NCBI GenBank assembly: GCA_902761735.1
Contig: CACWLL010000003.1
Location: 62,001 to 126,000 of the forward strand
Reading direction: 5' to 3'
DNA from: an uncultured bacterium
Lineage (GTDB): Bacteria; Cyanobacteriota; Vampirovibrionia; Gastranaerophilales; Gastranaerophilaceae
Length of the DNA stretch: 64,000 nucleotides
The notes under the pieces were generated by a model, which made no database searches, was not told the DNA's origin, and saw only the letters and a list, made by a program, of their open reading frames with translations. A program made the translations under genes and the position numbers. Shown piece after piece: positions 42,826 to 60,009 of the stretch (the stretch's first letter is position 1; each line of letters begins with the position of its first letter).

Positions 42826-42870
42826 TAAACACAAATGGTTTTATTTAAATGAATAGTTTGTGTTATTTTT
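42826..42870 (+). terminator. Probable terminator after the Mrr-like gene
   Basis: AACACAAA (42828-42835) and TTTGTGTT (42857-42864) form an 8-bp stem with an AT-rich inner part, followed by ATTTTT. The rest of the 258-base gap shows no gene before 42901. Confidence 0.5.
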
Positions 42871-42900
42871 ACTTGCAAAATTTAGAGAGGAGGTGAAATA

Positions 42901-43038
42901 ATGAAAAAATTAAGATTTTTAATCGTTGATATCGACGGTATAACTTATATGGTTACAAATTTCCGCAGTATCAAAGGAATTATAAAATTTAAAACTAAAG
43001 GTTTTTGGAAATTCCCTTACAAAAAATTTTCATCATAG
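42901..43038 (+). CDS. Small basic protein (45 residues)
   Basis: The reading frame MKKLRFLIVDIDGITYMVTN to KKFSS is short but has an excellent ribosome site, GAGAGGAGGTGA, correctly placed before the ATG. A perfect terminator starts immediately after the stop. The product is basic with a hydrophobic N-terminal third. The function is unknown; a toxin-like or regulatory peptide is possible. Confidence 0.6.
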   Translation: MKKLRFLIVDIDGITYMVTNFRSIKGIIKFKTKGFWKFPYKKFSS

Positions 43039-43068
43039 AATAAGTCTGCAAAGCAGACTTATTTTATC
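43039..43068 (+). terminator. Intrinsic terminator
   Basis: AATAAGTCTGC and GCAGACTTATT pair perfectly over 11 bp around AAA and are followed by TTAT. It begins right after the stop of the 45-residue gene. Confidence 0.85.
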
Positions 43069-43116
43069 AAGTTAGTATTTATGACATTATAATTTAATTA
43101 ACAGAAAGGATATAGT

Positions 43117-43848
43117 ATGGCAAAAGAACTAGATAATTTTATAAATAATGTATGCTGTGCGGACGAATGGATTGCAGGACCTGAAAATCATGATTTTGTT
43201 TTAAAAATGGCTGACATATTAAGAAAATCATACAGAGGTGATGAACTTAAAAGACCTGATGGGTATTATAAAGAAGAAAATAATGTTTATATAATTGAAC
43301 ATTTTGAATTTGATAGTTCAAAACCATTTAAAGGAAGCTTAAATAAAGTAGAATTGGACAGGGTAAATAAAGATTTTAATAAAGTTCAGAATACACAATC
43401 TATTTATCATAATCAACTAAATTGCAATTATACATACGACTTTTATAAAAAACGATTGGAAGAAACATATAATAATCATTATAAAAAAATAGATGGATAT
43501 AAAGAAATATTGAAGAATATGGGTATTATAAATGACAACTCAATTGTAACCACAATATTTTGCATAGAAGACACAAGTGCATTAGGTTCTATTATTTATA
43601 AAGATAATATGCAACATATTATCTTACCAACACGCTGCAGGAGTTTTTTGGATTTATTTGAACAAGCTCCTGATTTAGATATAGTTATTTGTCGTTCAGA
43701 ATATCGTAATCAAGTCTCATTTTTAGATAGAAATATTTTGGATTACTATCGAAAAGATCAACTTAAAGATGATGAGATTAAACTTGTTGATTGGGAACCT
43801 AAAGTTGCAGGATTTGCAATAAATATTTCAAATTATAAGAATGATTAG
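43117..43848 (+). CDS. Hypothetical protein, possibly nuclease-like
   Basis: The 243-residue protein has no signal or membrane segment. The first third (YIIEHFEFDSSKPFKGS) and the C-terminus (FLDLFEQAPDLDIVICRSEYRNQVSFL) alternate helix and strand. The pattern of an early acidic/His region and DIVI-type strands is compatible with a restriction-endonuclease-like fold, but I see no firm catalytic motif. GAAAGGA lies before the ATG. It sits within the defence island. Confidence 0.45.
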   Translation: MAKELDNFINNVCCADEWIAGPENHDFVLKMADILRKSYRGDELKRPDGYYKEENNVYIIEHFEFDSSKPFKGSLNKVELDRVNKDFNKVQNTQSIYHNQLNCNYTYDFYKKRLEETYNNHYKKIDGYKEILKNMGIINDNSIVTTIFCIEDTSALGSIIYKDNMQHIILPTRCRSFLDLFEQAPDLDIVICRSEYRNQVSFLDRNILDYYRKDQLKDDEIKLVDWEPKVAGFAINISNYKND

Positions 43849-43867
43849 ATTATGTAAATATATTATC

Positions 43868-44080
43868 TTATTTTTCGTAAGTAATAAAGAATGCGTTTAA
43901 CATATCCGCATTATTTCTCAAATTTTTAACAACCGGAGCAAGGTTATAGCACTCTTCAATTTCCGGCTGATTACAAACAAAGTAATCCACAATTACGACG
44001 ATATTATACACATCTTCCGCCCACTTGCTGACTTTCTTAAACTCCTGCTCGCTAATATTATATCCGCTAACTTCTTTCAT
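43868..44080 (-). CDS. Small helical protein, paralogue of the gene at 38571
   Basis: The 70-residue product shares its core with the protein at 38571-38804: NQPEIEECYNLAPV and LNAFFI are identical. A strong AAGGAGG site precedes it. It is directly downstream of the Fic gene on the same strand, 80 bases away. The function is unknown. Confidence 0.55.
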   Translation of the reverse strand: MKEVSGYNISEQEFKKVSKWAEDVYNIVVIVDYFVCNQPEIEECYNLAPVVKNLRNNADMLNAFFITYEK

Positions 44081-44160
44081 ATTTCCTCCTTATATCAGGA
44101 AACACATTGGCGTGAAAGCAGACATAAAGCACTGCAATCTTTACATAGCAACACAAAACA

Positions 44161-45168
44161 CTATTTTGTTACTTGCCAATGACCGTTTTTATTAGCACCA
44201 ATCCTTTTTATTAATCCGTTTTCTTGAAGTTTTTTCATATTGGCAGTTATGCTTTTCTTTGTAATTCCAATAATTTTAGCAAGCTCTTCCTGTGTTACAT
44301 ACGGATTTTTCTTAATTGCATCAATGATTTTTTGCTGATTTATGGTAACCTTTATAGTAACCTTTTTGGTAACCTTTTCTTCTGCTTTTATAATTTCTTC
44401 AATTGTATTTAAAATCAACGTAAGCATAAATTCTATAAATTTAGTGCTATTAGCAACACTATCGCTTACGCCAAGAACACTATAATATTCTTTCTGATTT
44501 TCTTTTACCAAAGTTTCAACAGGAAGCCAAGCAAAAACTTCTTTCCATTCTTTTAAAATGACGGTTTGCCACAAACGTCCCATTCTACCGTTTCCATCTT
44601 GGAACGGGTGAATAAACTCAAATTCATAATGGAAAACGCAGCTTTTTATAAGCGGATGGACATCGCTTGTTTTAAGCCATTCAAATAAATCAGCCATAAG
44701 TTCTGGGACCCTGTCTGCCGGGGGTGCCATATGTACAACTTTTTCTCCGTCAAATATACCGACACCATCGGTTCTATATTTCCCATTTCTTTCAACCAAA
44801 TCCTGCATCATAAGTTTATGTGCCTTTAGCAAATCTTTTTCATTATATGGGTTAAGAGATAAAAGCAAGTCATAAGCCTGAATTGAGTTTTTTACTTCTT
44901 TTATTTCGTTCGGATTGCCTAAAACTCGTTTTCCCTCAATTATTGCAGTAATTTGTTTTAGACTTAAACTGTTGTTTTCAATAGCTAAGGAAGAATGAAT
45001 AGTCTTTATTCGGTTTTCTTTTCTTAGTTGAATATTATATGGACTATCTTGAAGCGAATTTATCTCTCCAATTTTTTCCGAAATATTAGAAATAAGTTCA
45101 ATTATTTTTGATGTAATTTCAAATGGTGGTGTGTACAAATTTATATATCCTTGTGTTATTAATACCAC
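44161..45168 (-). CDS. Fic-domain protein with C-terminal winged helix
   Basis: Fic proteins usually transfer AMP to target hydroxyls. The 335-residue protein has the full motif HPFQDGNGRMGR (H187) and an N-terminal inhibitory-helix motif, SLAIENNSL, so it is the self-inhibited class. The C-terminal 60 residues form an HTH (VTQEELAKIIGITKKSITANMKKLQENGLIKR) that probably controls its own expression. It starts with GTG after AGAGG. Such proteins are often mobile toxin-like modules. Confidence 0.9.
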   Translation of the reverse strand: MVLITQGYINLYTPPFEITSKIIELISNISEKIGEINSLQDSPYNIQLRKENRIKTIHSSLAIENNSLSLKQITAIIEGKRVLGNPNEIKEVKNSIQAYDLLLSLNPYNEKDLLKAHKLMMQDLVERNGKYRTDGVGIFDGEKVVHMAPPADRVPELMADLFEWLKTSDVHPLIKSCVFHYEFEFIHPFQDGNGRMGRLWQTVILKEWKEVFAWLPVETLVKENQKEYYSVLGVSDSVANSTKFIEFMLTLILNTIEEIIKAEEKVTKKVTIKVTINQQKIIDAIKKNPYVTQEELAKIIGITKKSITANMKKLQENGLIKRIGANKNGHWQVTK

Positions 45169-45304
45169 TTAACCTCTTTATTTTAGCATAAATACATTTA
45201 TAAATTAATACGTAAATTTTTGTTAAAATCAAGGTGTACCTGCCTTTACAGATTTTGAAATAATTGCTATCCTTGTAACAGTTAATAGCCAGATACGAGG
45301 AAAC

Positions 45305-45469
45305 ATGTACAACTATCAACTTACGCCACAATTACAACTATTTAAAGACATGTATGACTATGCAGATGCATGCAGAACAATGCATAACCCAAGGAAATTA
45401 AATTTTGAAAAATTCCACGCATGCATAACAATAGGTCAGTTTTGGAATAAGTATATTAGATTTAATTAA
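45305..45469 (+). CDS. Possible 54-residue protein
   Basis: The reading frame MYNYQLTPQLQLFKDMYDYA to FWNKYIRFN has a GAGGA site close to the ATG and a plausible composition rich in aromatics. It lies in an otherwise empty gap between two leftward genes, on the opposite strand. No family is recognised and it may be spurious. Confidence 0.4.
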   Translation: MYNYQLTPQLQLFKDMYDYADACRTMHNPRKLNFEKFHACITIGQFWNKYIRFN

Positions 45470-45471
45470 TT

Positions 45472-46101
45472 TTACTTTCCTGTTATTTTATCTAAGCATT
45501 CATACAACTCGGATAATTTCTTACATGCTGGTAATAAATTTTCTTCTTTTGATTTTTTCAGTATTTTAAACGCAGAATCTAAATTTTCTTTATCTTTTGG
45601 CATCGCAAAAGGGTCTGTTTCTGCATATGAAATGCTATGAACTTCTTCATAGTACTTTTCGTAATCAGATAAAGCCTTATTGTTGGTGACTAGAGAATCT
45701 AAGAAAAATTTAGCTGTTACATATAAATTGATAATACATGTTCTTAGTTCATTATTTTTTATTTTGCCAATATTGGAAGTATTAGAATTAAATATCGAAA
45801 AATAATCTGTCCCAAGTGGATATTCATAATTTAAATATGCCTCATCATTACATATTTTAGGCATAAATTCGTGTTCAAATATATCTTTTAAAGAATATAA
45901 TTCTGTAATTAAGGCATTAATAATTGCCTCTGCCTCCATATCTTGCCTTTTTTCAAGTATTTCAAAATTATGTTTATGTGTTCTACTTGTAATTATCCAA
46001 GTTGATATTAACGAAATCAAACCGCCAACAATAGTTCCCAATAGCGAAGTTATAAAAGGGAACCATGCCGAGTTTGCAATATTATGATAATTTAAACACA
46101 T
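45472..46101 (-). CDS. Membrane protein in the RM-ApeA operon
   Basis: The 209-residue protein has an N-terminal hydrophobic region (WFPFITSLLGTIVGGLISLISTW, about residues 13-36), giving one or two membrane helices. A cytoplasmic helical and coiled-coil domain follows. It starts 21 bases after the ApeA-like gene and has a GGAG site, so the two are probably co-transcribed. Proteins of this type are common in phage-defence loci, but I cannot name a family. Confidence 0.55.
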   Translation of the reverse strand: MCLNYHNIANSAWFPFITSLLGTIVGGLISLISTWIITSRTHKHNFEILEKRQDMEAEAIINALITELYSLKDIFEHEFMPKICNDEAYLNYEYPLGTDYFSIFNSNTSNIGKIKNNELRTCIINLYVTAKFFLDSLVTNNKALSDYEKYYEEVHSISYAETDPFAMPKDKENLDSAFKILKKSKEENLLPACKKLSELYECLDKITGK

Positions 46102-46122
46102 TTATAATTTCTCCTTTTTTAA

Positions 46123-47820
46123 TTATATGATTGAAAATTTTTTTGTTTTTTTTAATTCCAAATAACGTTTATAGCATATTTTAAAATATTTTGGTAATTT
46201 TTTAATGCCATTTTCATTTATGTTTTTATTGATCAACATTTCATCTGATAATAATTTTAATTTATGGCTATTCTTCCGAGTGTACACACCCTCTTTAGAA
46301 TATTTTATTATTAATTTTACTTGTTCACCTATTTCTTCATAATAATAGTACATAGAAAATATTAATTCTTTATTATTATAAAAAGATTGTTCTTCTCCTA
46401 AATAATTATTACTATCAATATTTTTTATTTTTGGTGGATTATTAATCCATACATATGTTGAATTGAAATTGCTAAATTTAAAATAATTATTAGCTAAAAT
46501 AATTTTAACTATATCATCCTTTAATTTTAAATCTTTTAAAATAAATAGTTCTAATAAAGCTTTTGTCGATTCAATTAATTCATATTCATCTATATCTTTT
46601 ATTCGCCTATCATTACTTGAAAAACTGTAGTGTGTATAATAATTTCTTAAATTAACCAGGTCTTCCAATAGTTTAATTTTACCATTGTCTGTATATTTTA
46701 AATAAATTATATCTTGCACATTATTGTGTTTAATACAATTTAATAATTTTTCTTTAAAACTAAATAAACCATTTTTATTAAGTTCCTGTAATTCTTTTAT
46801 CTCGGGATATTCTCTTTTTAGTTTTAATAATAATGTAATAAAATCTGAACTAACCACTTTTTTGTCATTATATTTTTTAGAATTTAAATATGCTTCTAAT
46901 GCTTGTGTATATACAAGAAATTTTACTTGTGGATATATTTCATTTGGAACATCATGATTTCTTAAATATAAATCTATTATTACGGAAAAGTCCTTGTAAT
47001 CTCTTTTTTGAAGTTTAAAATAAGTTTGAATAACTTCAGCAAAATTCTTTCTAATATTTGGGTATATATATAAATATTTATGATGCTTTTTTATCTCATC
47101 ATACTCTTTATTTTCTATTTTATATTGAAATGGAATAATTGTCAGTTTAGTTTTTGCGGTATTATCTTCAGGGTTACTATACATATTTAATATAGGTAAT
47201 TTATGTTTTAAACCAAGAGAAAAAAAGTTAATTAATTTTCTGATAATATAATTAAATTCATCTAAAGACACCATTTTCTTTGAAATAATCTGAATTTCTT
47301 TTACTAATGACATCTTTGAATTTTCGCCGCCAAATGTTCCTCCACCCCAAGATACGCTATTTAACAACTTTAATTTGAAATTATCATCAAGTTTAATAAT
47401 TAATGGAGTTTTTGTTTTTATATATCTTAAACAAATGTCATCCGGATTTTTATAGTTATATTTTTCTATTCTATCAATTCCAATAAAAAATTCGTTAATA
47501 CAAGGGAAAGAAAAATTTATTTTTTTAAACTTCAAATTATTTGTTTGCTCGATACATTTAAACCCTTTTATTAGCGAGTCGAAACCGGATATGAAATGTA
47601 AGCCCATATCATAAAAAACATTGTTCCATAATAGTAATATTTCATTGTTTAAGGTATAACATGTAAAATTTTCATTTTTATTAAAAGATAATTTGGTATT
47701 TCGCGTAGAAAAATGTATTAAAATGCCATTTCTGTATTCTATTTTTCCAAAATGTAAATCTTCATCATTTGGCAAGGTATATTTACATTCTATTGACGTT
47801 AGTTCTTTTTTGTTTGTCAA
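46123..47820 (-). CDS. ApeA-like HEPN anti-phage protein
   Basis: The 565-residue protein matches the ApeA layout: a large beta-rich N-terminal domain (residues 1-230, including GGGTFGGEN) and a C-terminal HEPN domain with R392 and H397 in LRNYYTHY, the Rx4H ribonuclease motif. ApeA-type proteins cut RNA to stop phage growth and need no partner protein, as far as I know. It is sandwiched, with 21-base gaps, between the type IIG RM gene and a membrane-protein gene on the same strand, so regulation is probably shared. Confidence 0.75.
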   Translation of the reverse strand: MTNKKELTSIECKYTLPNDEDLHFGKIEYRNGILIHFSTRNTKLSFNKNENFTCYTLNNEILLLWNNVFYDMGLHFISGFDSLIKGFKCIEQTNNLKFKKINFSFPCINEFFIGIDRIEKYNYKNPDDICLRYIKTKTPLIIKLDDNFKLKLLNSVSWGGGTFGGENSKMSLVKEIQIISKKMVSLDEFNYIIRKLINFFSLGLKHKLPILNMYSNPEDNTAKTKLTIIPFQYKIENKEYDEIKKHHKYLYIYPNIRKNFAEVIQTYFKLQKRDYKDFSVIIDLYLRNHDVPNEIYPQVKFLVYTQALEAYLNSKKYNDKKVVSSDFITLLLKLKREYPEIKELQELNKNGLFSFKEKLLNCIKHNNVQDIIYLKYTDNGKIKLLEDLVNLRNYYTHYSFSSNDRRIKDIDEYELIESTKALLELFILKDLKLKDDIVKIILANNYFKFSNFNSTYVWINNPPKIKNIDSNNYLGEEQSFYNNKELIFSMYYYYEEIGEQVKLIIKYSKEGVYTRKNSHKLKLLSDEMLINKNINENGIKKLPKYFKICYKRYLELKKTKKFSII

Positions 47821-47841
47821 AATTTTACTCCATTTAGATAA

Positions 47842-50800
47842 CTATGAATTTTCAATACAACTTATTTCATCTTCTGTTAATTGATATAACTTATAAACAA
47901 TGTTATTGATTTCTTGTTCGTATTTTTCACATAAATTACTGTTATAATCTTGTTTTTGTTTTTCTTCTAATAATTTATTTACAAGATTTTCTATATCATT
48001 TTGTATGTATTCGGGAGCAATAATTATTGGTAAATTATCAACCTCATATCCGTTTACATTACTGTTCGTGCTTGAAATTTTGAATATATAATCTAATAAT
48101 GAACTATTTAGCAATCCTAAAAGATATTTTTTATTAACGGATTTGCTGAAATTAAGGTAGTTTACAGAATTAGCACAATAAATGCCAGCAGGAATAATTG
48201 TCATTTTTAGTCTGTGGCGTTCATTAACTCCTGTTAAGCCTTGCATAACGATTCTTTCATAGTTATGATGCTGAGCTTTCTCTGCTTTTACTTCTGATAA
48301 ATATTTTGATGAGTTTAAAAACTGAATTTCGCCTTGGCTCATTGCATTTCTTTTTAAATATCTATCAATTATTGCACCTTTTATCATTTCACTATCTTGA
48401 GGATTATCAGTTATGTATTTTGCGTTAATTGATATATCAATTTCCCCTGTGTAACAATGTGCTATATTACTTAATGGTGTAGATATTTTTCTTATTTTTC
48501 GTATTAACTCTATATCAGAAGCATTAGCAAGTGGTATTGTTAAATTTTCATCGAGTTCATTTATAATACCCAAATCTAATTTTGTCATTGGTATTGTTCC
48601 ATCAACAAATTTATTATCATTTTTTCTCAATTTAAATGAATTATTTTTATTTGTGAGTCTTAACGCACTTACTATACAAACAGATACTTTTGCATGTTCA
48701 AATACTCTACGTCTTGTGCTATCTCGCTCTGGAAATGCTTCTATATCAACAATAGAATAATTATCAAAAACAAATTTCCTAAGTTCTTTTAAAGATGAAT
48801 CACAAGCGAAAGCTAATGGGAATATCTGAATAAAGAAACCTTTTTGTCTTAAAAGTTTAAAACCTCTTAATATAAAAAATTTATATATATTCAACATTCC
48901 TGTTATTGCTGATTTATACTCGATACTATCTCTTAAATAGTCCGTAAAATCAGAATCCGTTTCTATTGAGACTTTTTGATTTTGTTTTTTATTAAGTAAA
49001 CCATAAGGCGGATTTGCGATAATTATATCAAATCCATTAAAGACACCATTTTCGTCAAGCAGTTCGGGAAATTCTATCATCCATTCCATAGAATTAGCAA
49101 ACACACCTTGCGTAGCTACATTTTCAAATATTTTTAATTGACGAGTTGGGAAAATTTTGTTTTTAATTGTTTTTATCTGTTCTTTTAATTCTGATTTTGA
49201 AATTTTACTTTCAGTATTTTTGTATTCTGCAACGAGATTTTTGTATTCTTTTATACTTTTTGCTTCCGCTGTTCTTCCGTCTAATGTTTCTAATGCACAA
49301 TGTCCGACTTTTACATCATAAGCAGACACAAGTGAGTTTCCGCATTTGATATTTATATCAATGTTTGGTAATATCTGCATTTCGTCAGTATTGCCGATAT
49401 AATATGTATTTTTAAGCAATTCTATCCATAACCTCAAACAGCAGATTTGAACGGAGTTTGGGTTAATATCAACACCGAACAAACAATTTTCAATAATCTT
49501 GCGTTTTTCGTCAAATATTGCTTTTTGAATAGTCAAAGAATTTTGATTATCGCGTTTGTATTCAAATTGTTTTTCTCCGTCAAGTTCATAAATCACAAGT
49601 GAATCGTTTTGTATTTCAACTTTGTTCGGTATAGGTAACAAGCCTAATTCACTTTTTAGTGCAACAATATAATTCAATACAGATACTAAAAAGTGTCCTG
49701 AACCAACTGCAGGGTCGCATATTTTTAAACTGTCAATTATTTCGTTATAAAAATCTCTGCGTTCTTTTATATGCACATCATAAGAAATTAAATGTTTTAA
49801 ATCTTCAATAGTTGTACATGGTGCTTTTTCTTTGCCAAAAGCATTATTGAATTTCTGCAAAACAATATTGTTTATTGAAGTTTCAGCCATGTATTCGGTT
49901 ATATATGCCGGTGTAAAGAATGAACCGTCCTTATAACCGTTCAGTTTTTCAAAAATCAAGCCTAATACAGAAGAATTGATGATGTCTTTTTTATCATCTT
50001 CGTCAGAAATATTTGAACTAAAACTGTACGCTTCAAGAAAATCAAGTAAGTATTTCAGTAATGTCGGATTTTTAGGATAATTTTTTGCTTTTGATAAAAT
50101 ACTGCCTTTACACAACGGCAAAGTAATTTCACTATCAAGATTTGCAATATTACCATATTTAGATTCAAGTTCTGACCTTTCAAAAAGTGAACTGTTTAAA
50201 TATGGTATTTCGTGTTCTTCTCTTTCGCTTAACGGTTTTCCTAAGACATTAAAAAATAATCTGTTTAATTTGGCGAAATTTTGGATTTTATCAAAATTCA
50301 GAAATGCAAAAGTTTTATTGTTATCATTGAACGATATTAACTGACTTTCAAATAATTTTAAAAATAAAAGACGATTCAACCAAACAATAATAAGATTAAT
50401 AACATCATCAAATCTGTTGCAGTTTAAATCATAAGCAATTCTATATCGCAAAGTCCCTTTATCATCAGATGCTACAATTTTCTTTTGGTTTTTGCCTTCT
50501 TCTTTTAAACCTAAAATATACAACAATTCGTTATAAAACTTTGAATTTAATTCGTTTGAGTCTTTTGGCGAATATTCTCTCAATAAGAAATCTGAATGTA
50601 ATGCTTTATACAAGTATTGTAACTGTCTTTTGTCATTATCATTCAAAGAATTCTTTAAAATCTTTGATTTGTATTGAATTAAGTTAAATTCAGCATAATC
50701 AAACTGAATATCTTTTTCTTTTATTTTTGCTCCGATTTGGTCGTAAAGAGTTTTGGTATCTGTATAAGCAACTTGATTATTTCTGAATTGTAAACAAATA

Positions 50801-51267
50801 CGCCCTAAATCTTTATTACAAAACTGCTTTGGATTAAAGAAAAATACGTGTTCTGTATCAGTAATAACAACATTCTTGATATTATAACTAATTTCTTTGC
50901 TGTCTTGATTGTAAAAATACCAAATAGCCTCCTGCAAAGCTTTTTTATTAATATCTTCATTATCTGCTTGTAGCATTTCGATTTTATTGTTAGGTGCTTT
51001 AAATTCAAAAATAACTTGTGTTTTGCCATCTTTTTTAACTGACAAATCAACTCTATTTTCGTTTAGCAAAGTAATATAATTTTTTAATAAATGCTTGTTA
51101 AAAACACCTTTTAATAGCTCTTCATTGGTTTTATCAACAGTTTCTAATTCTGCAAAAAAATCTCGCAAATTTTTTATAAAAGCATTAAAATCTTTTTCAT
51201 CGACATTTTTACTTTTATATGCTTTGTTATAAGACCCTAGAAAATTATAAAACCTCTGCTTTGCCAC
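47842..51267 (-). CDS. Type IIG restriction-modification enzyme
   Basis: The 1141-residue single-chain enzyme combines a nuclease and an adenine methyltransferase. An N-terminal PD-(D/E)xK site is visible as D74 in VDLSVKKD and E88-F-K90. The methyltransferase has SAM motif I DPAVGSGHF (D518) and the catalytic NPPY at 752-755. The C-terminal part (TGEIDISINAKYI, LPIIIAPEY) is a TaqI/Eco57I-like specificity domain. It cuts and methylates at the same asymmetric site; the site cannot be read here. It heads the leftward operon with the ApeA-like gene. Confidence 0.92.
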   Translation of the reverse strand: MAKQRFYNFLGSYNKAYKSKNVDEKDFNAFIKNLRDFFAELETVDKTNEELLKGVFNKHLLKNYITLLNENRVDLSVKKDGKTQVIFEFKAPNNKIEMLQADNEDINKKALQEAIWYFYNQDSKEISYNIKNVVITDTEHVFFFNPKQFCNKDLGRICLQFRNNQVAYTDTKTLYDQIGAKIKEKDIQFDYAEFNLIQYKSKILKNSLNDNDKRQLQYLYKALHSDFLLREYSPKDSNELNSKFYNELLYILGLKEEGKNQKKIVASDDKGTLRYRIAYDLNCNRFDDVINLIIVWLNRLLFLKLFESQLISFNDNNKTFAFLNFDKIQNFAKLNRLFFNVLGKPLSEREEHEIPYLNSSLFERSELESKYGNIANLDSEITLPLCKGSILSKAKNYPKNPTLLKYLLDFLEAYSFSSNISDEDDKKDIINSSVLGLIFEKLNGYKDGSFFTPAYITEYMAETSINNIVLQKFNNAFGKEKAPCTTIEDLKHLISYDVHIKERRDFYNEIIDSLKICDPAVGSGHFLVSVLNYIVALKSELGLLPIPNKVEIQNDSLVIYELDGEKQFEYKRDNQNSLTIQKAIFDEKRKIIENCLFGVDINPNSVQICCLRLWIELLKNTYYIGNTDEMQILPNIDINIKCGNSLVSAYDVKVGHCALETLDGRTAEAKSIKEYKNLVAEYKNTESKISKSELKEQIKTIKNKIFPTRQLKIFENVATQGVFANSMEWMIEFPELLDENGVFNGFDIIIANPPYGLLNKKQNQKVSIETDSDFTDYLRDSIEYKSAITGMLNIYKFFILRGFKLLRQKGFFIQIFPLAFACDSSLKELRKFVFDNYSIVDIEAFPERDSTRRRVFEHAKVSVCIVSALRLTNKNNSFKLRKNDNKFVDGTIPMTKLDLGIINELDENLTIPLANASDIELIRKIRKISTPLSNIAHCYTGEIDISINAKYITDNPQDSEMIKGAIIDRYLKRNAMSQGEIQFLNSSKYLSEVKAEKAQHHNYERIVMQGLTGVNERHRLKMTIIPAGIYCANSVNYLNFSKSVNKKYLLGLLNSSLLDYIFKISSTNSNVNGYEVDNLPIIIAPEYIQNDIENLVNKLLEEKQKQDYNSNLCEKYEQEINNIVYKLYQLTEDEISCIENS

Positions 51268-51406
51268 ACTTAATCCTCCTATGATTTGAGTTGATTATAT
51301 CATGAACATTAACGTAATTCTTAATTTTTAGTTAATTTTTTCAGTAATTTTGAGAATTTATTGTACTATTTTAATAAATATTAAACCAGCATTAATGAGA
51401 GGAAAG
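51268..51406. promoter_or_regulatory. Divergent promoter region
   Basis: These 139 bases lie between the RM gene and the TIR-like/TPR gene. They are very AT-rich and must carry both promoters. I see no clear palindrome. AGGAAAG at about 51400 serves the rightward gene. Confidence 0.4.
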
Positions 51407-52762
51407 ATGACAATAAATAATCATATATTTGTAGCAATGCCATTTGGCCAGAAAAAAGCCCAAGGTAAAAGTTATAATATAGATTTTGATCTAATATATA
51501 ATAATGCCATTAAACCTGCTGCCGAAGAATTGGGGCTTAATATTATCAGAGCAGATGAAGAAAGTGATAGTGGTATAATTCATGCCCTAATGATTGAACG
51601 ATTAATATGCACAGACATTGTTATTGTAGATATTACAAATGAGAACCCAAATGTATATTATGAACTCGGAATTCGTCATTGTGCACGACCATATTCTACA
51701 ATTCTTATTTATGATAAAAAAACAAAAATCCCTTTTGATATACAACCTCTTCGTGCTATACCTTATGAATTAGAAAGAGGTATTATATCAGAAGCTTCTG
51801 CCGAATTACTTAAAAAGGGTATTGTTGAAAGAATTAGATATTCACTACAGTATGGTTTTCATTGCGATAGTTTACCTTTTGCACTAATTGAAGATTTCCC
51901 CCGAAAAGACTTAAACCCAGAAAAATTATCTATATATAAGCAAATGCATAAACAAAGAACAATATTTAAAAATCAAATAGAAGATATTAATAATATAGAT
52001 AAACTTAAAACTATTATTGCAGAAATTGATAATATCCATTTTCCATACAAATATTTGATTTATGAACTCATTGAAGGTTTTAGAAAAATAAAAGCTTGGG
52101 ATGAATTAATTAATTTTATTGAAAATAATATAGACGAGGAGCTTAAAAATACTATATACGTAAAACAACAATATGCATTGGCATATAATAAACGAAATAG
52201 AATTAATGATGAACTTAATGCTATTAGAATATTAAAATCAATTATAAATAATTATGGAGAATCTGCAGAAACATATGGTCTACTTGGTGGAGCTTATAAA
52301 AGTTTAGCACTTAAACAAACAACTAATTCTGTTCCTTACAATAGTTATATAGATCACGCTATTGAAAACTACCGAAATGGTTTTGTGTTTGATTCTAGAG
52401 AGTATTATCCCGGTATTAATTTGGCGACATTGTTACTTTTAAAAAATACCACTGATTCAATATCCGAACTAAAAAGGATATTACCTGTAATATGCTATAA
52501 TATTGAACTTAATGATTTCACAGTATCAAACGATTATTGGTTATTAGCTTCTGCATATGAATTATATATATTGATGCAGAAATTTGATAAAGCTAAAAAT
52601 ATACTTGGACTTATTTCGACATTAGATTCTAAACCTGAGGAATGGATGGTAGAAACAACTATCAGAAATTTAACATTAATTAAAGTTGAATATGAAAAAC
52701 ACTCAATATCTGTTGATTGGTATAAAAATTTTGAAAAATTAATACAAAATAAGGAGATATAA
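51407..52762 (+). CDS. TIR/deoxyribosyltransferase-like domain plus TPR-like domain
   Basis: The 451-residue protein has two parts. Residues 1-150 form an alpha/beta domain starting IFVAMPFGQ, with IVIVDITNENPNVYYELGIRHC (E86 is the likely catalytic acid). This belongs to the TIR and nucleoside 2-deoxyribosyltransferase superfamily, whose members cleave N-glycosidic bonds, including in NAD. Residues 200-440 are helical repeats with EYYPGINLATLLLL, typical of the MAP3K-TRAF-binding-like TPR (TPR-S) region, which has been proposed to sense nucleotide signals. One base separates it from a ThsB-like gene. I chose the ATG at 51407 (AGGAAAG upstream). Confidence 0.75.
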   Translation: MTINNHIFVAMPFGQKKAQGKSYNIDFDLIYNNAIKPAAEELGLNIIRADEESDSGIIHALMIERLICTDIVIVDITNENPNVYYELGIRHCARPYSTILIYDKKTKIPFDIQPLRAIPYELERGIISEASAELLKKGIVERIRYSLQYGFHCDSLPFALIEDFPRKDLNPEKLSIYKQMHKQRTIFKNQIEDINNIDKLKTIIAEIDNIHFPYKYLIYELIEGFRKIKAWDELINFIENNIDEELKNTIYVKQQYALAYNKRNRINDELNAIRILKSIINNYGESAETYGLLGGAYKSLALKQTTNSVPYNSYIDHAIENYRNGFVFDSREYYPGINLATLLLLKNTTDSISELKRILPVICYNIELNDFTVSNDYWLLASAYELYILMQKFDKAKNILGLISTLDSKPEEWMVETTIRNLTLIKVEYEKHSISVDWYKNFEKLIQNKEI

Positions 52763-52763
52763 A

Positions 52764-53168
52764 ATGACAAATATTAGAAAAGTTTTTATTTCGCATTGTT
52801 GGGATTATGAAGATGATTATGATACAATAAAAGATTGGATTAATAACACTCCTTATTATGAATTTTATGATTATAGTATTTCTGCTGACAAAAAACTTGT
52901 AGGTTTAAATAATTATGAATTGGCAAACGCAATAAAAGAACGTATCCGTCAGTGTAGCGTATTTATCGTTCCAACAGCCGTATATTCATCATGTAGTGAA
53001 TGGGTTAAATTTGAAATTGAGGTTGCTGTAGCAATGAAAAAGCCTATTTTAGGTGTTAACCCTTGGGGACAACAACATTATTCTATTAATGTAACAACAC
53101 ATGCGAATAAAATTGTTGGTTGGAATTCTAAAAGTGTAATAGACGGTATAAAAGAATTAACAAGATAA
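52764..53168 (+). CDS. Thoeris ThsB-like TIR protein
   Basis: The 134-residue protein is a compact TIR-like domain of the MTH538/ThsB type: KVFISHCWDYEDDYDTIKDW, YEFYDYSISADKKL, ECSVFIVPTAVYSS-like strand, SEWVKFEIEVAVAMKKPILGVNPWG and VGWNSKSVIDGIKEL. In Thoeris, ThsB senses phage and makes a cyclic ADP-ribose-type signal that activates the NADase ThsA. Here no ThsA (SIR2-SLOG) gene is present; the partner is the TPR-containing gene just before it. The AAGGAG site lies within the end of that gene, so the two are translated as a pair. Confidence 0.82.
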   Translation: MTNIRKVFISHCWDYEDDYDTIKDWINNTPYYEFYDYSISADKKLVGLNNYELANAIKERIRQCSVFIVPTAVYSSCSEWVKFEIEVAVAMKKPILGVNPWGQQHYSINVTTHANKIVGWNSKSVIDGIKELTR

Positions 53169-53370
53169 TTTAAGAAGTAAGAATAATATTAAACTGTCTA
53201 AAATTAAGAATGTTTTAAAATATATTATATAATATAATTTTATCTCAATCTCACAGATAATTTAATCTTGTTTTGAGTGTCAATTTACAGGCAGTAGGGC
53301 GAGAACCACCCGTTTGTGTGAATGCGTAAATAGTGAACTCTTCGCATATACGTTTTTATATTTTATAAAT

Positions 53371-53399
53371 ACAAGAGGATGTGTTTAGCATCCTCTTGT
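53371..53399. terminator. Hairpin between convergent genes
   Basis: ACAAGAGGATG and CATCCTCTTGT pair perfectly over 11 bp around a 7-base loop. Flanking T-runs are weak on both sides. It lies between the ThsB-like gene and the leftward small gene. The rest of 53169-53370 has no gene. Confidence 0.6.
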
Positions 53400-53407
53400 G
53401 AAATTCT

Positions 53408-53776
53408 TTATTTATCTTCAATAAATACATGGGCACCGTTCATTGTTACCCAATGTCCGTTTTCAAGATTTGGATTTGGGTTATGAAAATTTAGAATGCG
53501 GTTAAGTCGTTTGTTACTTTCATTATCTTTTGCTTTGAATTTTGCCCTTATTTCATCAGAAAACTTTTGGCTCGGAGTTTTAGGGATGTCAGTTTTCACT
53601 GTTGGTTGCGTTATTGCAGCTTCTTTAACAGGTTTACTAATAAGGGCAGCCTGTCCTGTTGATTTACTTGTATTTTTTATATACAATTTAGCTGCTTCAA
53701 GAGATTTATTAGAAAAATTATGCAGCATATGTGGCACAAATCTGGATTTATTTTCATAGCGAATTAATGAATTCAA
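53408..53776 (-). CDS. Small protein with phage-minor-head-like C-terminus
   Basis: The 122-residue protein has a helical, Thr/Pro-rich middle and ends NGHWVTMNGAHVFIEDK. That ending resembles the conserved tail of phage minor head proteins (WVTINGxHVxI pattern). It may be a remnant of a Mu F-like protein or an adaptor for a toxin. It lies 11 bases after the lipase-like gene. I see no catalytic motif. Confidence 0.5.
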   Translation of the reverse strand: MNSLIRYENKSRFVPHMLHNFSNKSLEAAKLYIKNTSKSTGQAALISKPVKEAAITQPTVKTDIPKTPSQKFSDEIRAKFKAKDNESNKRLNRILNFHNPNPNLENGHWVTMNGAHVFIEDK

Positions 53777-53787
53777 TTTGTTATTTT

Positions 53788-54330
53788 TTATATTGGATTA
53801 ATTTTTAAATCAGGCACTAAATATATTAATCCTGATTGTTTATCTAACATTTTATTAAATAATTTGTCAGATTGCCTACCATAAGTCTTTATTTTTTTGT
53901 CATCATATGCAAAGTGTTCAGGATGTGCTTCTACGATATGTTTACTCCCGATGGGTGCAATAGCTATTGAGGGTAAACCTGTATGATGAGCAAGAAGGTT
54001 AGCTATTGAACCACCAAGAGAATATCCCGTTAACTCAATTCGTGCGTTAGGATATTTAGTTTTAACTAAATTATATAAATGTTCCGCATTGAAGTATTGC
54101 TCCGGGATATTATTTGAATATAAAATTTTTAAGGCATCTATATCATCTTCCTTTTGTGAAATGTCAGCTCCAGAAAAGGCTAAAACAATTCTATTATTTT
54201 GTTTATAGACTCTTGCATCAAAACTTTTATTTTTTATTATATTGTCAAATTCATGTAATGTTTGCCAATTTTGTATTTCTTTTTTATTTTGTGCACCATC
54301 ACAAAATTTCAGACTTTCGTATGTGTTCAT
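53788..54330 (-). CDS. Lipase-fold alpha/beta hydrolase (class 3/DUF2974-like)
   Basis: The 180-residue protein has the nucleophile elbow GYSLGGS preceded by IELT and followed by IANLLAHHTGLPSIAIAP, and an earlier RIVLAFSGAD strand, as in class 3 lipases and DUF2974 proteins. A distal His (HFAYDD) may complete the triad. No signal peptide is present. I chose the ATG at 54330, which has GGAG upstream; 54375 is an alternative. Its partner downstream has a phage-head-like tail, and a membrane protein is divergent, so a toxin module is possible. Confidence 0.7.
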   Translation of the reverse strand: MNTYESLKFCDGAQNKKEIQNWQTLHEFDNIIKNKSFDARVYKQNNRIVLAFSGADISQKEDDIDALKILYSNNIPEQYFNAEHLYNLVKTKYPNARIELTGYSLGGSIANLLAHHTGLPSIAIAPIGSKHIVEAHPEHFAYDDKKIKTYGRQSDKLFNKMLDKQSGLIYLVPDLKINPI

Positions 54331-54364
54331 TGATTTTCTCCTTTTTTTATGATTAAATATTTGC

Positions 54365-54745
54365 ATGAATTCCAAATTAAGAACAATCTTGCTTATAATT
54401 TATTTAATTTTTCAAATTCTTTTGTTGATATATCTTGCTTTTAATTTTATACTTCTTTGCTATGCTCTATGGTTACTATACGGATTAGGTGTAGAATTTT
54501 TGTATCAAAATCATTTAATTATTAAAATGTTGATTATATATGGTTTCATAATATTCGGATACATTTTCTGCTATTACCTTATTTATAGATCAGCAAAGGT
54601 TACAAAAAAAATGACAAATAATATACCTTTATTAAAATCAGAAAAAGTAGTGTTGTATCTTGCGGCAATCTTAATAATTGCAAATATAGTATTTGCAATT
54701 ATATTGTTCCCATTTTCAAAGATTCTTTTTGATTATGGTATGTAG
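54365..54745 (+). CDS. Small membrane protein, possible immunity protein
   Basis: The 126-residue product has about four hydrophobic segments (residues 5-27, 28-48, 55-78, 98-120) and little else. It is divergent from the lipase-like gene, with 34 bases between starts. An immunity role against a membrane-acting lipase would fit, but this rests on position. No family is recognised. Confidence 0.5.
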   Translation: MNSKLRTILLIIYLIFQILLLIYLAFNFILLCYALWLLYGLGVEFLYQNHLIIKMLIIYGFIIFGYIFCYYLIYRSAKVTKKMTNNIPLLKSEKVVLYLAAILIIANIVFAIILFPFSKILFDYGM

Positions 54746-55065
54746 ATACTTTGGTTAATTTATATAAAAACTAGCATGAATCCATAAAAATCTCCTTTTA
54801 ATTTGTTTAATACACTAAATTCCATACACTACCAATTTCAGCTATATTCTTCTAAAAGTAAATCCTTTTCCAAAAATCCGGTTGACTAAGATACAGAAAA
54901 CAAGTAAATGTATTAAATTTATGCTACTACTGTAACATACAAAACATGCTCGGCATGAATAATTAACGAAAAATTAATAATTATACATAAAATCTCAATC
55001 TCAAAGATATTTTAATCTCATACCGAGTGCTAAATAACAAAAAGTTCTATATTTGGGTTATAGGT
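54746..55065. other. Intergenic region before the second Mu-like element
   Basis: This AT-rich stretch of 320 bases has no gene with a ribosome site. A sequence reading CTCAATCTCA-AGATA-TTTAATCT around 54990 resembles one near 53246, upstream of the leftward hairpin. Otherwise I see nothing. Confidence 0.3.
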
Positions 55066-55160
55066 TTTCAGGACAGTTGTGATTGGAGTTTTTAGGTAAA
55101 TATGCCTAATTACAGGGCGATAGAGGCAGGTTTATAGTGTAGAGATTTGTCGGACTATTT

Positions 55161-55286
55161 TTGCACTTTTGTCACAAATTTTGCACTAATTTGCACTAAT
55201 ATTTAGTTATGCTGAATCTTGTTTCAGCATCTATTCCGCTTGGTATTTGAATTTTCTAGAGTGCAAAATAGTGCAATATAGTGCAA
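55161..55286. promoter_or_regulatory. TTGCACT iterons around a hairpin (copy 2)
   Basis: TTGCACT lies at 55161, 55181 and 55191. AGTGCAA lies at 55260, 55270 and 55280, mostly at 10-base spacing, one helical turn. The central stem ATGCTGAA/TTCAGCAT (55209-55230) differs from copy 1 by paired changes that keep base pairing. Confidence 0.65.
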
Positions 55287-55377
55287 AAATAATTTATCTA
55301 TCAAATTAAGATTAACAAAATTGACACAAAAATTGAGATTAGATTGTGGTAATTTATTTTGTAAATATAATAATTTT

Positions 55378-56397
55378 ATGGAAAAGAATTTAAGAGAATA
55401 TACAAAACTTGCAAAAACTTCTACTCAGATTATGCTAGCGGCAATTGATAATTTCAATAGAGTGTTTAGTGATTATAAAAATCAGACTACATTTATTTTA
55501 ATTACAAATGCGTGGGAGTTAATTAGTAAAGCTATTTTATTAAAAAAGAGAAAGAATATATATCGAGATAAAGCAAAAAAGATTACTATAGCGGCAGAAG
55601 AAGCAACTTTAAAACTATATAATGAAAAAATATTAACTGAAAATCAAATTGATTTATTGAATCAAATTTTTTCAATAAGAAATCATTGTGTACATAATAT
55701 TTGTCCTGAAATTCCAATAGAAATAACCCACCATCTATTTTTCTTTTCTTGCAAATTTTATAAGGATTTAATAATTAAATTTTTCCCAAAATATAAAAAA
55801 ATAGTTGAAACAAATTTTATTTCAATTTCCTTTAGTGAAACACTAACATATGCAGATAAAGTTAAGAATATTGTAAGTAAATTAAAAACAGTAAAGAATA
55901 AAACGAATAAAGAATTAGTATGGTTATTAGAAAGAGGAATATGTTATAAATCAAGTTCTAGTTTTATTTCTCAAGCAGAATTTGAGAAAAAATATAAAAA
56001 CAAAAATAGAATATTATCTAATTTAGAATTAAATAAATTTTTAAACTCAACTGATATGGTAAGAATTGTTCCGGTTCAAGCTCCAAAGAATTTTAGTGCC
56101 GATATTATCCTTAGAAAAGGGGATAAAAAACTTACAACTTCATTACCCGTAATTTACAAAAAGAGTAATGTGAATGATGATTATCCTTTTTTAACCAGTG
56201 ATCTAGCAAAAAAGATTTCCAAAGATACGAATTATACAGCCAGACTTATTAGTAAACTCGGATTAAAAGGAGATGAAGAATATCATTATCCCGTCAAATC
56301 ATCTAAAAATGGTACGACGCATAAATATTCAGAAAAGGCATTGTCATTTATTAAAGGTTTTTTAGAAGATAAACCTGATTATAATCCATACAGATAA
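55378..56397 (+). CDS. DUF3644/HEPN-like protein (cargo of copy 2)
   Basis: The 339-residue protein begins with a helical domain resembling DUF3644 (IMLAAIDNFNRVFSDYKNQ, FILITNAWELISKAILL). It carries R101, N102 and H106 in IRNHCVHN, the RNxxxH motif of HEPN ribonucleases. The C-terminal part (residues 190-330) is basic and may bind DNA or RNA. It lies between the iterons and the transposase, a place where copy 1 has only about 100 bases, so it is a passenger. The start is uncertain: a TTG at 55321 would add 19 residues. Confidence 0.65.
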   Translation: MEKNLREYTKLAKTSTQIMLAAIDNFNRVFSDYKNQTTFILITNAWELISKAILLKKRKNIYRDKAKKITIAAEEATLKLYNEKILTENQIDLLNQIFSIRNHCVHNICPEIPIEITHHLFFFSCKFYKDLIIKFFPKYKKIVETNFISISFSETLTYADKVKNIVSKLKTVKNKTNKELVWLLERGICYKSSSSFISQAEFEKKYKNKNRILSNLELNKFLNSTDMVRIVPVQAPKNFSADIILRKGDKKLTTSLPVIYKKSNVNDDYPFLTSDLAKKISKDTNYTARLISKLGLKGDEEYHYPVKSSKNGTTHKYSEKALSFIKGFLEDKPDYNPYR

Positions 56398-56465
56398 ATA
56401 CACTTGACTTCTGTCTCAACAAGAGTGATGAATGTGTGTAATAACACTATCACGGAGTTTGATAT

Positions 56466-58178
56466 ATGCAAAAGCAAGTTGAGACAATTAAATTTACTCC
56501 CGAAAAATGTAAACAAATAGCACTTGCAAGACTTGATGTAGTTCATCATTGGCTCGAGTTCAGAAAGAAATCTCAAAATAAACTCCAAGCTGATTATGAT
56601 TTTGTGAAATTGCATAATACTTCAAACTCTCACTTATTTGAGATTTTAGGTAAAATCTCCCGCGGAAGTTTGCACCGTTGGTATGCAATGCTAAACGGAA
56701 CAGAAGATTATACAAAGTTATTACCACAATATAAATATAGCAGTGTTGATGATTATAGAACAGTATTAAATGATGAAGAAATAAAAATATTTATGGGTTT
56801 GCTTTTGCATCCGAATAGATTATCTATTGGAAAAGCAATAGCACTAACAAAATACAAACTAAAAGAACAAGGACAGAGTTTTATTCCATCTGATATTACT
56901 TTTAGGAGATATGCAAAATGGTTCAAAGATAACAATTACGATAAATGGATTTTAGCACGTGACGGGGAGAAAGCATTATCTGATAAAGTTGAACCCTACA
57001 TAAAACGTGATGCGTTGCTTTTAGAAGTCGGGGATATTCTTGTAGCAGATGGGCATAAACTCGCCTTTCAGGTGATTAATCCATTTACAGGCAAACCCAC
57101 CAGAGCAACTCTTGTTGGATTTTTAGATTGGAAATCAACAGCACTCGTTGGCTATGAAATTATGCTTGAAGAAAATACCCAATGTATCGCAAGTGCATTA
57201 AGAAATGCAATTATAAATCTTGATATGATACCGAAAGTTGTTTATCAGGATAACGGCAGAGCGTTTCGGGCAAAATACTTTACAGATGACAGAGGATTTA
57301 GTGAGTTAGGATTTAACGGACTATATTCAAAACTAGGAATAGAAACCGTTTTTGCAAGACCGTATAATGCGAGAGCAAAAGTTATTGAAAGATTCTTTAA
57401 AGAATTTCAGGAAGGTTTTGAAAAATTATTGCCAAGCTATATTGGCTCATCGATAAATAACAAACCTGCGTATATGATGCGGAATGAAAAATTCCATAAA
57501 AACCTTCATAGCGAATATATTCCAACAATAGAAGAAACAATAAAAATGATTGATATGTGGCTGAGTTTTAAAAATTCTCAGCCTTGCCCGAATGCTCCGG
57601 ATAAAACAATCGCAGAAGTTTTATCAGAAAGAAAACGGCAGAATATTGATATAAATACACTTGAGGATTTAATGCTATCAACAGAAGTTAAGACAATTCA
57701 GCGGAATGGTATCAGGTTCTTAAATTGTGATTATTTTGATGAGAGGTTATACGGCTTTAAAAGCAAAGTTTTAATAAAATACAATCTTTTTGACCTTACA
57801 AGTATTAAGGTTTACACCCCGAAAGGCGAATATTTATGCACTGCAGAGCATGTAACAGAAACACATCCGATGGCAAAACTCTTGGGTAATGTCAAAGATT
57901 ATGAAGATTACAAGCAGAAAATTGTAAGACAACGACAGTTAAAAAAGAAAACAGTTGAATCGGTTAAAAAATATCTGAAAGCAGAGGATATAAAACTGCT
58001 TGAAACTCAGATAGAGCCCAATGAAATCCAAATGCTGTTCAAAACGGATTTAAAAAGGGTTCAAACACTGTTCAAAAATAATTCAGAAAAATATGAGTAT
58101 TTAATAATCCATAATCCACAAGATGAATGGATTGCAGAGTTTAAAAAGACAAAGGAGTACAGGCTTTTATATGAATAA
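56466..58178 (+). CDS. Mu-like DDE transposase (MuA family), copy 2
   Basis: The 570-residue protein is a close homologue of the one at 29990, with six extra N-terminal residues (MQKQVETIKF). The catalytic residues are D195 (LVADGHKL), D262 (YQDNGRAF) and E308 (VIERFFKEF). Differences are spread through the gene and are mostly silent or conservative, so both copies appear to be under selection. GGAG lies 10 bases before the ATG. It overlaps the MuB-like gene by 8 bases, as in copy 1. Confidence 0.9.
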   Translation: MQKQVETIKFTPEKCKQIALARLDVVHHWLEFRKKSQNKLQADYDFVKLHNTSNSHLFEILGKISRGSLHRWYAMLNGTEDYTKLLPQYKYSSVDDYRTVLNDEEIKIFMGLLLHPNRLSIGKAIALTKYKLKEQGQSFIPSDITFRRYAKWFKDNNYDKWILARDGEKALSDKVEPYIKRDALLLEVGDILVADGHKLAFQVINPFTGKPTRATLVGFLDWKSTALVGYEIMLEENTQCIASALRNAIINLDMIPKVVYQDNGRAFRAKYFTDDRGFSELGFNGLYSKLGIETVFARPYNARAKVIERFFKEFQEGFEKLLPSYIGSSINNKPAYMMRNEKFHKNLHSEYIPTIEETIKMIDMWLSFKNSQPCPNAPDKTIAEVLSERKRQNIDINTLEDLMLSTEVKTIQRNGIRFLNCDYFDERLYGFKSKVLIKYNLFDLTSIKVYTPKGEYLCTAEHVTETHPMAKLLGNVKDYEDYKQKIVRQRQLKKKTVESVKKYLKAEDIKLLETQIEPNEIQMLFKTDLKRVQTLFKNNSEKYEYLIIHNPQDEWIAEFKKTKEYRLLYE

Positions 58179-58851
58179 GATTTTTGTAAAAACGCAGAAT
58201 GTGAAAAACTTTATAGGATTAGTTGAAAACCTAATCAACAAACCAAAGAATATTCCAAAAATGGGATTGGTTTATGGTGAACCCGGACTTGGGAAATCTC
58301 AGACAGCATTGTGGCTTGCGTGCAAGTATGACGGAATTTATTTAAGGGCATCAAACCTAATGACAGGTCGCTGGCTTTTGGAAGAAATGGTAAAGGAACT
58401 TGATGAAATACCCAGATTTTTGACTTCGGATAATTTTAATCTTGTGGTTAAAAAGCTGAAACAAAATCCGCAGGTCATTTTTATTGATGAAATTGATTAC
58501 CTGATGAATAATTACAAAACCATTGAAACCCTCAGAGATATCCACGATGAAACCGGATGTCCGATTATATTTATTGGAATGGGATTGGCGCACAGGAAAC
58601 TTGAAAGGTACAAACATCTTTATGACAGGTTTTCGGAAATTCTAAAGTTTGAAACTTTTGGGGTAAATGATATCAGGCAAATTATTAATCAATTATCAGA
58701 AGTTACGTTTACTCCCGATTCGGTTGAATATATCCATTCAAAATTTAATAGGTTCAGACAAATTGTTCAACTTATAAATCAAATGGAAATATTTGGCAAA
58801 GATAATAATTTAGTAGAAATAAATATGGAGGTTATAAGTCATATTTTATGA
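58171..58851 (+). CDS. MuB-like AAA+ ATPase, copy 2
   Basis: The 226-residue protein keeps Walker A GEPGLGKS and Walker B VIFIDEID and is nearly identical to the copy at 31677. The ATG at 58171 follows AAAGGAG; a reading frame open further upstream would overlap the transposase and is not needed. Its role is to capture the target and activate the transposase. It overlaps the next, broken gene by 4 bases. Confidence 0.88.
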   Translation: MNKIFVKTQNVKNFIGLVENLINKPKNIPKMGLVYGEPGLGKSQTALWLACKYDGIYLRASNLMTGRWLLEEMVKELDEIPRFLTSDNFNLVVKKLKQNPQVIFIDEIDYLMNNYKTIETLRDIHDETGCPIIFIGMGLAHRKLERYKHLYDRFSEILKFETFGVNDIRQIINQLSEVTFTPDSVEYIHSKFNRFRQIVQLINQMEIFGKDNNLVEINMEVISHIL

Positions 58852-59356
58852 ACATAGAAAAATTGGCACGACATTTAAAAGAATTTACTATTGTTGAAAT
58901 TGAAATGATTGCAGAGTGTAATTGCAATACAGAGCTTGAACACCTTTTGAACGAGAATAAATTGGTATTTGAACAAGGTTTGTATAAATATAAAGAGCCG
59001 GAGCACTTAAAACTTTTGATATTTTTGAAAAACCGATTTATAAAAGCTGTGAACGGATTTTGTTTAAGAATATGGCAATTATGTATTTGAATAATCGCAG
59101 ACTTACAAAAGATACTTTAAAAGGCTACCGTTCACAGTTAAAATATAATATTATTCCGTTTTTTGAGGGTTTATATGCTGATGAAATTACTTATGAAAAG
59201 ATATTAGAATTTGTTGAATTTATGAAGAAAAAATTTAAACCGAAGACTGCAAGTAACGGAGTAACCTTGCTGGGCAGTATTTTAAAATATGCATTTATGG
59301 AGGGTTATATCAAAAATAATCCGTATTTTGGTGTTAGAAATTCAATGTGTAAATAA
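58848..59356 (+). pseudogene. Frameshifted accessory gene (integrase core-binding-like), copy 2
   Basis: Frame 1 (58848-59090) encodes MNIEKLARHLKEFTIVEIEM, matching the N-terminus of the copy 1 protein, and then loses similarity after about residue 48. From about 58994 another frame continues open, reading FDIFEKPIYKSCERILFKNM and then LNNRRLTKDTLKGYRSQLKY, a core-binding-like region, to 59356. One frame change near 58990-59000 explains this. The second half is only distantly similar to copy 1. Programmed frameshifting is less likely but not excluded. Confidence 0.7.
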
Positions 59357-59365
59357 GGAGACATT

Positions 59366-59764
59366 ATGACTAAATTAGATAAATTAAAACAGGCAGAGCA
59401 TTTATATGTTTATGATAAACAACCGCTTGATGTGATTGGCGCAAAACTTGATTTATCGCGCAGGACTTTATTCTATTGGAAAAAGGAATACGAATGGGAT
59501 AAAAAGAGGTTTGAAAAAGGCCGAGAGCTGGAACTATTTAACCGTGAGCTGATGAAATTTGCTCAAAAAATTATGGATAAAATTTCAAATGATATTGATA
59601 ACAATCAACAAACACCACAGGCAGAGATGTATTCGCTGATGAATATCTTAAAAAATCTGCCGCAAGTAAAACAGCAAACAACAGTACCAATACAAAAACA
59701 AAAAACTCTTTCACCTGAGCATTTTAAACAAATAGAGAAAGAGCTGTTTGGGATTGATTTCTAA
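59366..59764 (+). CDS. Small HTH protein (terminase-small-subunit/DUF1804-like), copy 2
   Basis: The 132-residue protein is a close homologue of the one at 32910: MTKLDKLKQAEHLYVYDKQP and LDLSRRTLFYWKKEYEWDKK. AAGGAGA precedes the ATG. Its stop overlaps the stop of the convergent gene A by 4 bases, which shows the arrangement of the element without the cargo found in copy 1. Confidence 0.6.
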   Translation: MTKLDKLKQAEHLYVYDKQPLDVIGAKLDLSRRTLFYWKKEYEWDKKRFEKGRELELFNRELMKFAQKIMDKISNDIDNNQQTPQAEMYSLMNILKNLPQVKQQTTVPIQKQKTLSPEHFKQIEKELFGIDF

Positions 59765-60009
59765 AGTCGTTCTATATACCAGTTTGACATTCCAAAGTGA
59801 TTAAAATTCCAATGGAGTTCAAAATAAAAATTAAACTCCAAAGAGTTGTCGTCTTTGAAGTTCCAAGAGTATTTATTTAGTTGTGTTTTGCGGTAACTTT
59901 CAAACGTGTCCTGAATTTCTTTTGCAAACTTTTTTCTGAATTCAGAATACGGAATGTCAAGTGTTTCTTTAGTCAATTTATTTTTCACCTTCATTTCGCT
60001 TCGCTCCAT
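59761..60009 (-). CDS. Small conserved element protein A (copy 2)
   Basis: The 82-residue product is over 90 per cent identical by eye to the protein at 37810-38049 except at the N-terminus, which reads MERSEMKV because a short insertion replaced the original start region. The function is unknown. Conservation of the C-terminus in both copies supports the gene. Confidence 0.6.
   Translation of the reverse strand: MERSEMKVKNKLTKETLDIPYSEFRKKFAKEIQDTFESYRKTQLNKYSWNFKDDNSLEFNFYFELHWNFNHFGMSNWYIERL

Follow-up and report, generated by a model that had tools for sequence, protein, structure and literature searches.

In a 64,000-nucleotide stretch of DNA (the window) from a gut bacterium of the Gastranaerophilaceae, a cyanobacterial relative, a gene for a ThsB-type TIR protein (Gene 2) follows a gene whose product is not ThsA (Gene 1). 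The question raised by this locus is whether such a pair works like Thoeris, and with what effector. Both open reading frames were confirmed where the original prediction had placed them, with Gene 1 running from an ATG at 51407 to a stop at 52762 (Table 1). The gap between this stop and the ATG of Gene 2 at 52764 was one base (A), and the ribosome site of Gene 2 lay inside Gene 1. Direct reading thus upheld the operon that had been proposed.

Table 1. Features of the gene pair and of the adjoining genes in the window
Feature	Position	Strand	Content or basis
Gene 1	51407..52762	+	451 aa; DRHyd/TIR-like domain ~1-150 (E86) and TPR-S/MAP3K TRAFs-binding helical region ~170-450
Gene 2	52764..53168	+	134 aa; ThsB-type TIR with F8, S10, W80, E84
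NPNVYYELG motif of Gene 1, residues 80-88, putative catalytic Glu86	51644..51670	+	direct reading
Shine-Dalgarno AAGGAG of Gene 2, within the last codons of Gene 1	52750..52755	+	direct reading
Probable ribosome-binding site of Gene 1, GAGAGGAAAG	51397..51406	+	direct reading
Probable left junction of the module	51307..51406	.	blastn: same-genus homology stops at 51306
SoFic-like Fic-HTH	44161-45168	-	
ApeA-like HEPN protein	46123-47820	-	
Type IIG restriction-methylase	47842-51267	-	

Domains and folds of the two proteins

Gene 1 matched PF13281 (MAP3K_TRAF_bd; 2.4e-31) and PF20308 (TPR-S; 1.1e-19, 71.3 bits against a cut-off of 27.6) in Pfam, and Gene 2 matched PF08937 (ThsB_TIR; 5.4e-13). 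These matches are above chance level. Pfam and the reading of the NPNVYYELG motif with E86 agreed with the TIR/deoxyribosyltransferase-like and TPR-S-like domains predicted for Gene 1. NCBIfam named neither protein; its sole match, smpB for Gene 2, was rejected as noise (15 bits against a cut-off of 119). Gene 2 matched the ThsB model of PADLOC 2.0.0 (3.3e-16). Since Gene 1 gave only a weak TIR-effector match there, the pair as such was unrecognised by PADLOC 2.0.0.

The AlphaFold2 model of Gene 1 (mean pLDDT 89.7) was compared with solved structures by using VIA-align 2. The helical part matched the central regulatory region of human ASK1 (5ulm) with Z 21.8 and an rmsd of 3.0 over 261 residues; other TPR proteins scored well under ASK1 (Z 15 or less). 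The N-terminal domain matched human DNPH1 (8rpt; Z 13.1, rmsd 2.4, 125 residues), a TIR-STING protein (Z 13.0, rmsd 2.1), and the CMP N-glycosidase MilB (4ohb; Z 12.8), figures that come from the whole-protein run, the fold search having used whole models of Gene 1 and Gene 2. The search bore out the two-part reading of Gene 1, with a DNPH1/MilB-type half and an ASK1-like helical half. The Gene 2 model had a TIR fold (pLDDT 82). Solved structures near it included ThsB, 8fz9, and enzymes of the NDT and DNPH1 kinds, and their Z values were too close for ranking. By sequence profile the nearest was clearly the B. cereus TIR 8fz9 (1.1e-33), and BcThsB (6lhy) matched at 1e-12.

The residues F8, S10, W80, and E84 were invariant in 13 relatives of Gene 2. 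With F8, W80, and E84 intact, Gene 2 is the ThsB-like TIR with typical motifs that had been predicted. In Gene 1, N80, N82, Y85, E86, L87, and G88 were invariant in 9 relatives (alignment A1), which were collected without use of the motif. The 69 rows of alignment A2 were picked from genomes by a scan for N[PA]N[VA][FIY]YELG, so the invariance of N80-G88 in A2 is uninformative; it was rejected as evidence and A1 was used instead. Outside the motif, where A2 residues count, M11, P12, F13, R48, D50, D75, R90, and H91 were invariant, as were N261, E288, G294, K298, Y322, G325, Y334, G336, N338, Y377, and W378 in the TPR-S part. The residues N261, G294, K298, G336, N338, Y377, and W378 are as would be expected of a ligand pocket, and ASK1 keeps most of them in the alignment.

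By structure and by sequence profile (E = 3.7e-27 against ASK1), Gene 1 and the regulatory half of human ASK1 (MAP3K5) are homologues. The order of parts is the same, a DRHyd-like domain followed by the TPR-S helical region. ASK1 has a kinase, whereas no Ser/Thr kinase domain was matched in Gene 1 by Pfam. ASK1 has FYHLG where the bacterial proteins have YYELG (FYHLGVR against fYELGvR), placing His at the position of the catalytic Glu, and its N-terminal stretch scores weakly alone. The central region of ASK1 is a protein-binding scaffold; to our knowledge, ASK1 is not known as a sensor of an ADP-ribose signal. This homology was absent from the original prediction.

Partner genes, recurrence, and genomic setting

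Known Thoeris effectors are SIR2-STALD, TM-macro, or caspase-like proteins (PMC12578639, PMC12847820). STALD and SIR2_2 (type I ThsA) were not found anywhere in the source genome, the assembly of which is listed as 99.98% complete. ThsA_Macro (type II ThsA) was likewise not found there, and the positive control, G371, gave a clear match; Peptidase_C14 (type IV caspase-like effector) was also not found in the source genome. The predicted lack of a ThsA partner was consistent with this genome-wide absence of STALD, ThsA_Macro, and SIR2_2. The pair resembles Thoeris types I, II, and IV in having a ThsB-type TIR beside a multidomain partner in one operon. The partner here is a DRHyd-TPR-S protein, whereas theirs is SIR2-STALD, TM-macro, or a caspase-like protease. 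Since these are the known effectors, the pair does not belong to types I, II, or IV by its effector. It may work like Thoeris.

STALD (0/5) and ThsA_Macro (0/5) were absent from all five genomes with the pair; one of them, G035, had a single SIR2_2 protein on a separate contig, without STALD. In G371, from the same family, no Gene 1 homologue was found; this genome carried ThsB with ThsA_Macro (type II Thoeris) and a separate locus of ThsB, TIR, and TIR-SLOG cluster2 (L105, L106). Therefore, Thoeris and the Gene 1-Gene 2 pair are separate in this lineage.

The nearest relatives were in Gastranaerophilales and other Cyanobacteria/Melainabacteria genomes. Among 386 genomes of the phylum, PF13281 matches were found in 11, and full-length Gene 1 homologues numbered five, all in the source organism's own family. 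ThsB_TIR was carried by only 38 of the 386 genomes, and a ThsB_TIR gene adjoined the Gene 1 homologue at each of the five full-length loci. The chance of this co-occurrence at genome level alone was 7e-6, a figure that ignores genome relatedness. The order was Gene 1-Gene 2 with 1-2 nt between at four loci; at the fifth (G244), a TIR lay upstream of the Gene 1 homologue, with a second TIR opposite. An extra TIR gene was present downstream of the pair in G035 and G175. The pair was kept in different genera and contexts (tRNA-Ser, tRNA-His, tRNA-Met, or integrases). In a second, plasmid-borne clade, a TIR stood beside all members (8/8) and a ThsB_TIR gene beside most, with the pairing seen in Pseudomonas, Vibrio, Acinetobacter, Pediococcus, Lactiplantibacillus, and E. 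coli.

The wider distribution was investigated with 80 relatives of Gene 1. A TIR was found within 1 kb in 21 and a ThsB-type TIR in 12; 59 of the 80 loci had no TIR within this distance, some of these being cut by contig ends. Of the sides of the 80 genome loci, 15.6% had a TIR gene starting within 1 kb, compared with 2-4% farther out. In a tree built by a quick method and with several long branches, two clades, the Gastranaerophilales and the compact plasmid forms, had near-constant TIR pairing, which was mostly missing from a large group. Invariable pairing of Gene 1 with ThsB was rejected, as most wider relatives lack a nearby TIR. On these counts Gene 1 can act without ThsB, and its effector half is not specific to Thoeris. 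The expected recurrence without ThsA thus held at all five full-length loci of the phylum and did not extend to most other Gene 1 relatives. No relatives were found when viral contigs were scanned with either protein.

The pair adjoins a defence island on the minus strand (44161-51267). In a same-genus genome (G012, L112), the restriction-methylase gene and its leader were 87.7% identical up to 51306 by blastn, followed by divergence. Because homology around this conserved neighbour breaks off there, the pair was probably acquired separately, as a module of its own inside the island of Fic, HEPN, and restriction genes. Beside the conserved type IIG gene of G012 (L112:2724-3740), a protein starting KYQIFVSSTYKDLKNERKAV looks like DUF4062 (Swarozyc-like); its gene occupies the place of the ApeA-like gene in the 64-kb window. 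A Mu-like transposable element (transposase A/B) was present in two copies, at 55058-58851 and 29582-32357. Between its end and the transposase, the 55-kb copy held a candidate defence gene, DUF3644/PDC-S19 (55321-56397), and the aligned copy of G012 (L114) was without this gene. The blocks 53230-53585 and 54783-55340 had many copies in the source and same-genus genomes (about 73-96% identity), and the repeat blocks at 55 kb matched the element ends. Rfam gave no RNA family in 40000-60000.

Proposed signalling and its alternatives

The preferred reading, to which we give an even chance of being right, is a mobile module of two genes, centred on NAD, that would act against phages by abortive infection and be Thoeris-like with a different effector. 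We infer for the pair an anti-phage role, a messenger, a signalling direction, and a substrate as follows. Infection would be detected by the ThsB-type TIR, on its own or, in some relatives, together with helper TIRs; through F8 and E84 this TIR would make a messenger of the ADP-ribose type from NAD+. Binding of the messenger to the TPR-S superhelix of Gene 1 would activate the N-terminal DRHyd domain (E86). The activated domain would cut NAD+ or nucleotides at the N-glycosidic bond, leading to cell arrest.

This messenger model is favoured because the expression signals of the two genes overlap and only 1 nt separates them, because the five Gene 1 loci of the phylum and the eight plasmid-clade members all adjoin a TIR, and because the five pair genomes are without STALD or ThsA_Macro, while G371, without Gene 1, has Thoeris. 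The location in a defence island (SoFic-like Fic, ApeA-like HEPN, and type IIG restriction-methylase) and the TPR-S invariants outside the search motif, most kept in ASK1, also argue for it. The lack of the catalytic Glu in ASK1, for which no sensing of an ADP-ribose signal is known, counts against it, as do the many wider relatives of Gene 1 with no TIR within 1 kb. The TIR/DRHyd fold does not distinguish a messenger maker from an effector, and the catalytic residues are intact in both partners. The wiring could be reversed, which we consider unlikely. Gene 1 would then be infection sensor and signal maker, with the TPR-S superhelix binding a phage protein and the DRHyd domain making the messenger, and the small TIR would be an NAD-depleting effector or amplifier. 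The many Gene 1 homologues without a TIR would suit such an autonomous sensor-enzyme, and the second or third TIR in some relatives, as well as the SLATT/DUF4231, patatin, and WD40 neighbours in others, look as if Gene 1 drove several outputs. However, the single-domain TIR of 134 aa has no obvious messenger receptor, and ThsB-type TIRs studied to date are messenger makers, not final effectors (PMC12578639, PMC12847820).

The TIR and the DRHyd-TPR-S protein might also assemble into a direct-contact signalosome, like ASK1 with its partners, and dispense with a diffusible messenger. The homology of Gene 1 to the scaffold region of ASK1 is consistent with this, as is the formation of assemblies by TIR domains (PMC11364022). 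The catalytic Glu is intact in both proteins, in contrast to the His of ASK1, and such an assembly is quite unlikely. A role outside phage defence, as a stress-response or addiction module that lies in the defence island by chance, is improbable, since links with ThsB-type TIRs, as well as with restriction, HEPN, and Fic genes, recur. It would agree with the toxin-antitoxin genes at times found beside plasmid members, and the literature searched yielded neither an experiment nor a phage assay on the Gene 1-Gene 2 pair.

Prior predictions and related modules

Burroughs and Aravind (2020, J Bacteriol) reportedly predicted TPR-S to be a scaffold sensing NAD-derived (TIR) signals, and are said to have proposed that it was later built into the ASK signalosome. 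Pfam already lists TPR-S as a sensor domain family. The TPR-S/DRHyd-TIR conflict systems of the 2020 prediction reportedly share with the present pair TPR-S (PF20308), a DRHyd partner, a TIR gene, and a predicted NAD-derived signal; the Gastranaerophilales host lineage and the ThsB-type TIR appear to be added here. Gene 1 has the TPR-S domain and the N-terminal NDT/DNPH1-like domain with a catalytic Glu expected of the family. The idea of an undescribed Thoeris variant stood as to a recurrent pair of ThsB without ThsA. Since TPR-S as an NAD-signal sensor ancestral to ASK1 was reportedly proposed in 2020, with the domain already in Pfam, "undescribed" is only partly right. The combination is real and recurrent but falls within an already predicted family, so it is not brand new.

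A bacterial origin of the ASK signalosome is cited in a passage of PMC8195603. Literature searches found no bacterial defence paper joining Thoeris with TPR-S, TRAFs-binding, or DUF4071. Swarozyc, a DUF4062 TIR-like NADase (PMC13174449), is similar in being a bacterial defence protein with a TIR/NDT-like catalytic domain and Glu; it is of another domain family, and Gene 1 had no DUF4062 match in Pfam.

Tentatively, the pair may represent a further type of TIR-messenger immunity, with a TPR superhelix receptor rather than SLOG or macro and a deoxyribosyltransferase-like glycosidase effector; stripped of its catalysis, this receptor-effector module would have become the regulatory half of ASK1 kinases in animals. 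If the wiring is true, TPR-S would add to the kinds of receptor for ADP-ribose signals made by TIRs. It would also pose a testable ligand question for ASK1, in whose central region several of the TPR-S invariants are retained. Laboratory tests are practical with the compact natural versions found on Acinetobacter and Pseudomonas plasmids.

Other genes were observed beside TPR-S genes. Patatins made up five of the downstream neighbours, and a Rhodococcus plasmid (L012:3980-7091) carried a divergent TPR-S protein beside a patatin-like phospholipase. On enterobacterial, Rhizobium, and Vibrio plasmids (L096:1143-4339; L009; L015), a DUF4231/SLATT 2TM protein and a TIR adjoined a TRAFs-binding protein and its TIR. 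The DUF4231 and TIR part looks like a module of its own, because three E. coli plasmids carry that part alone.
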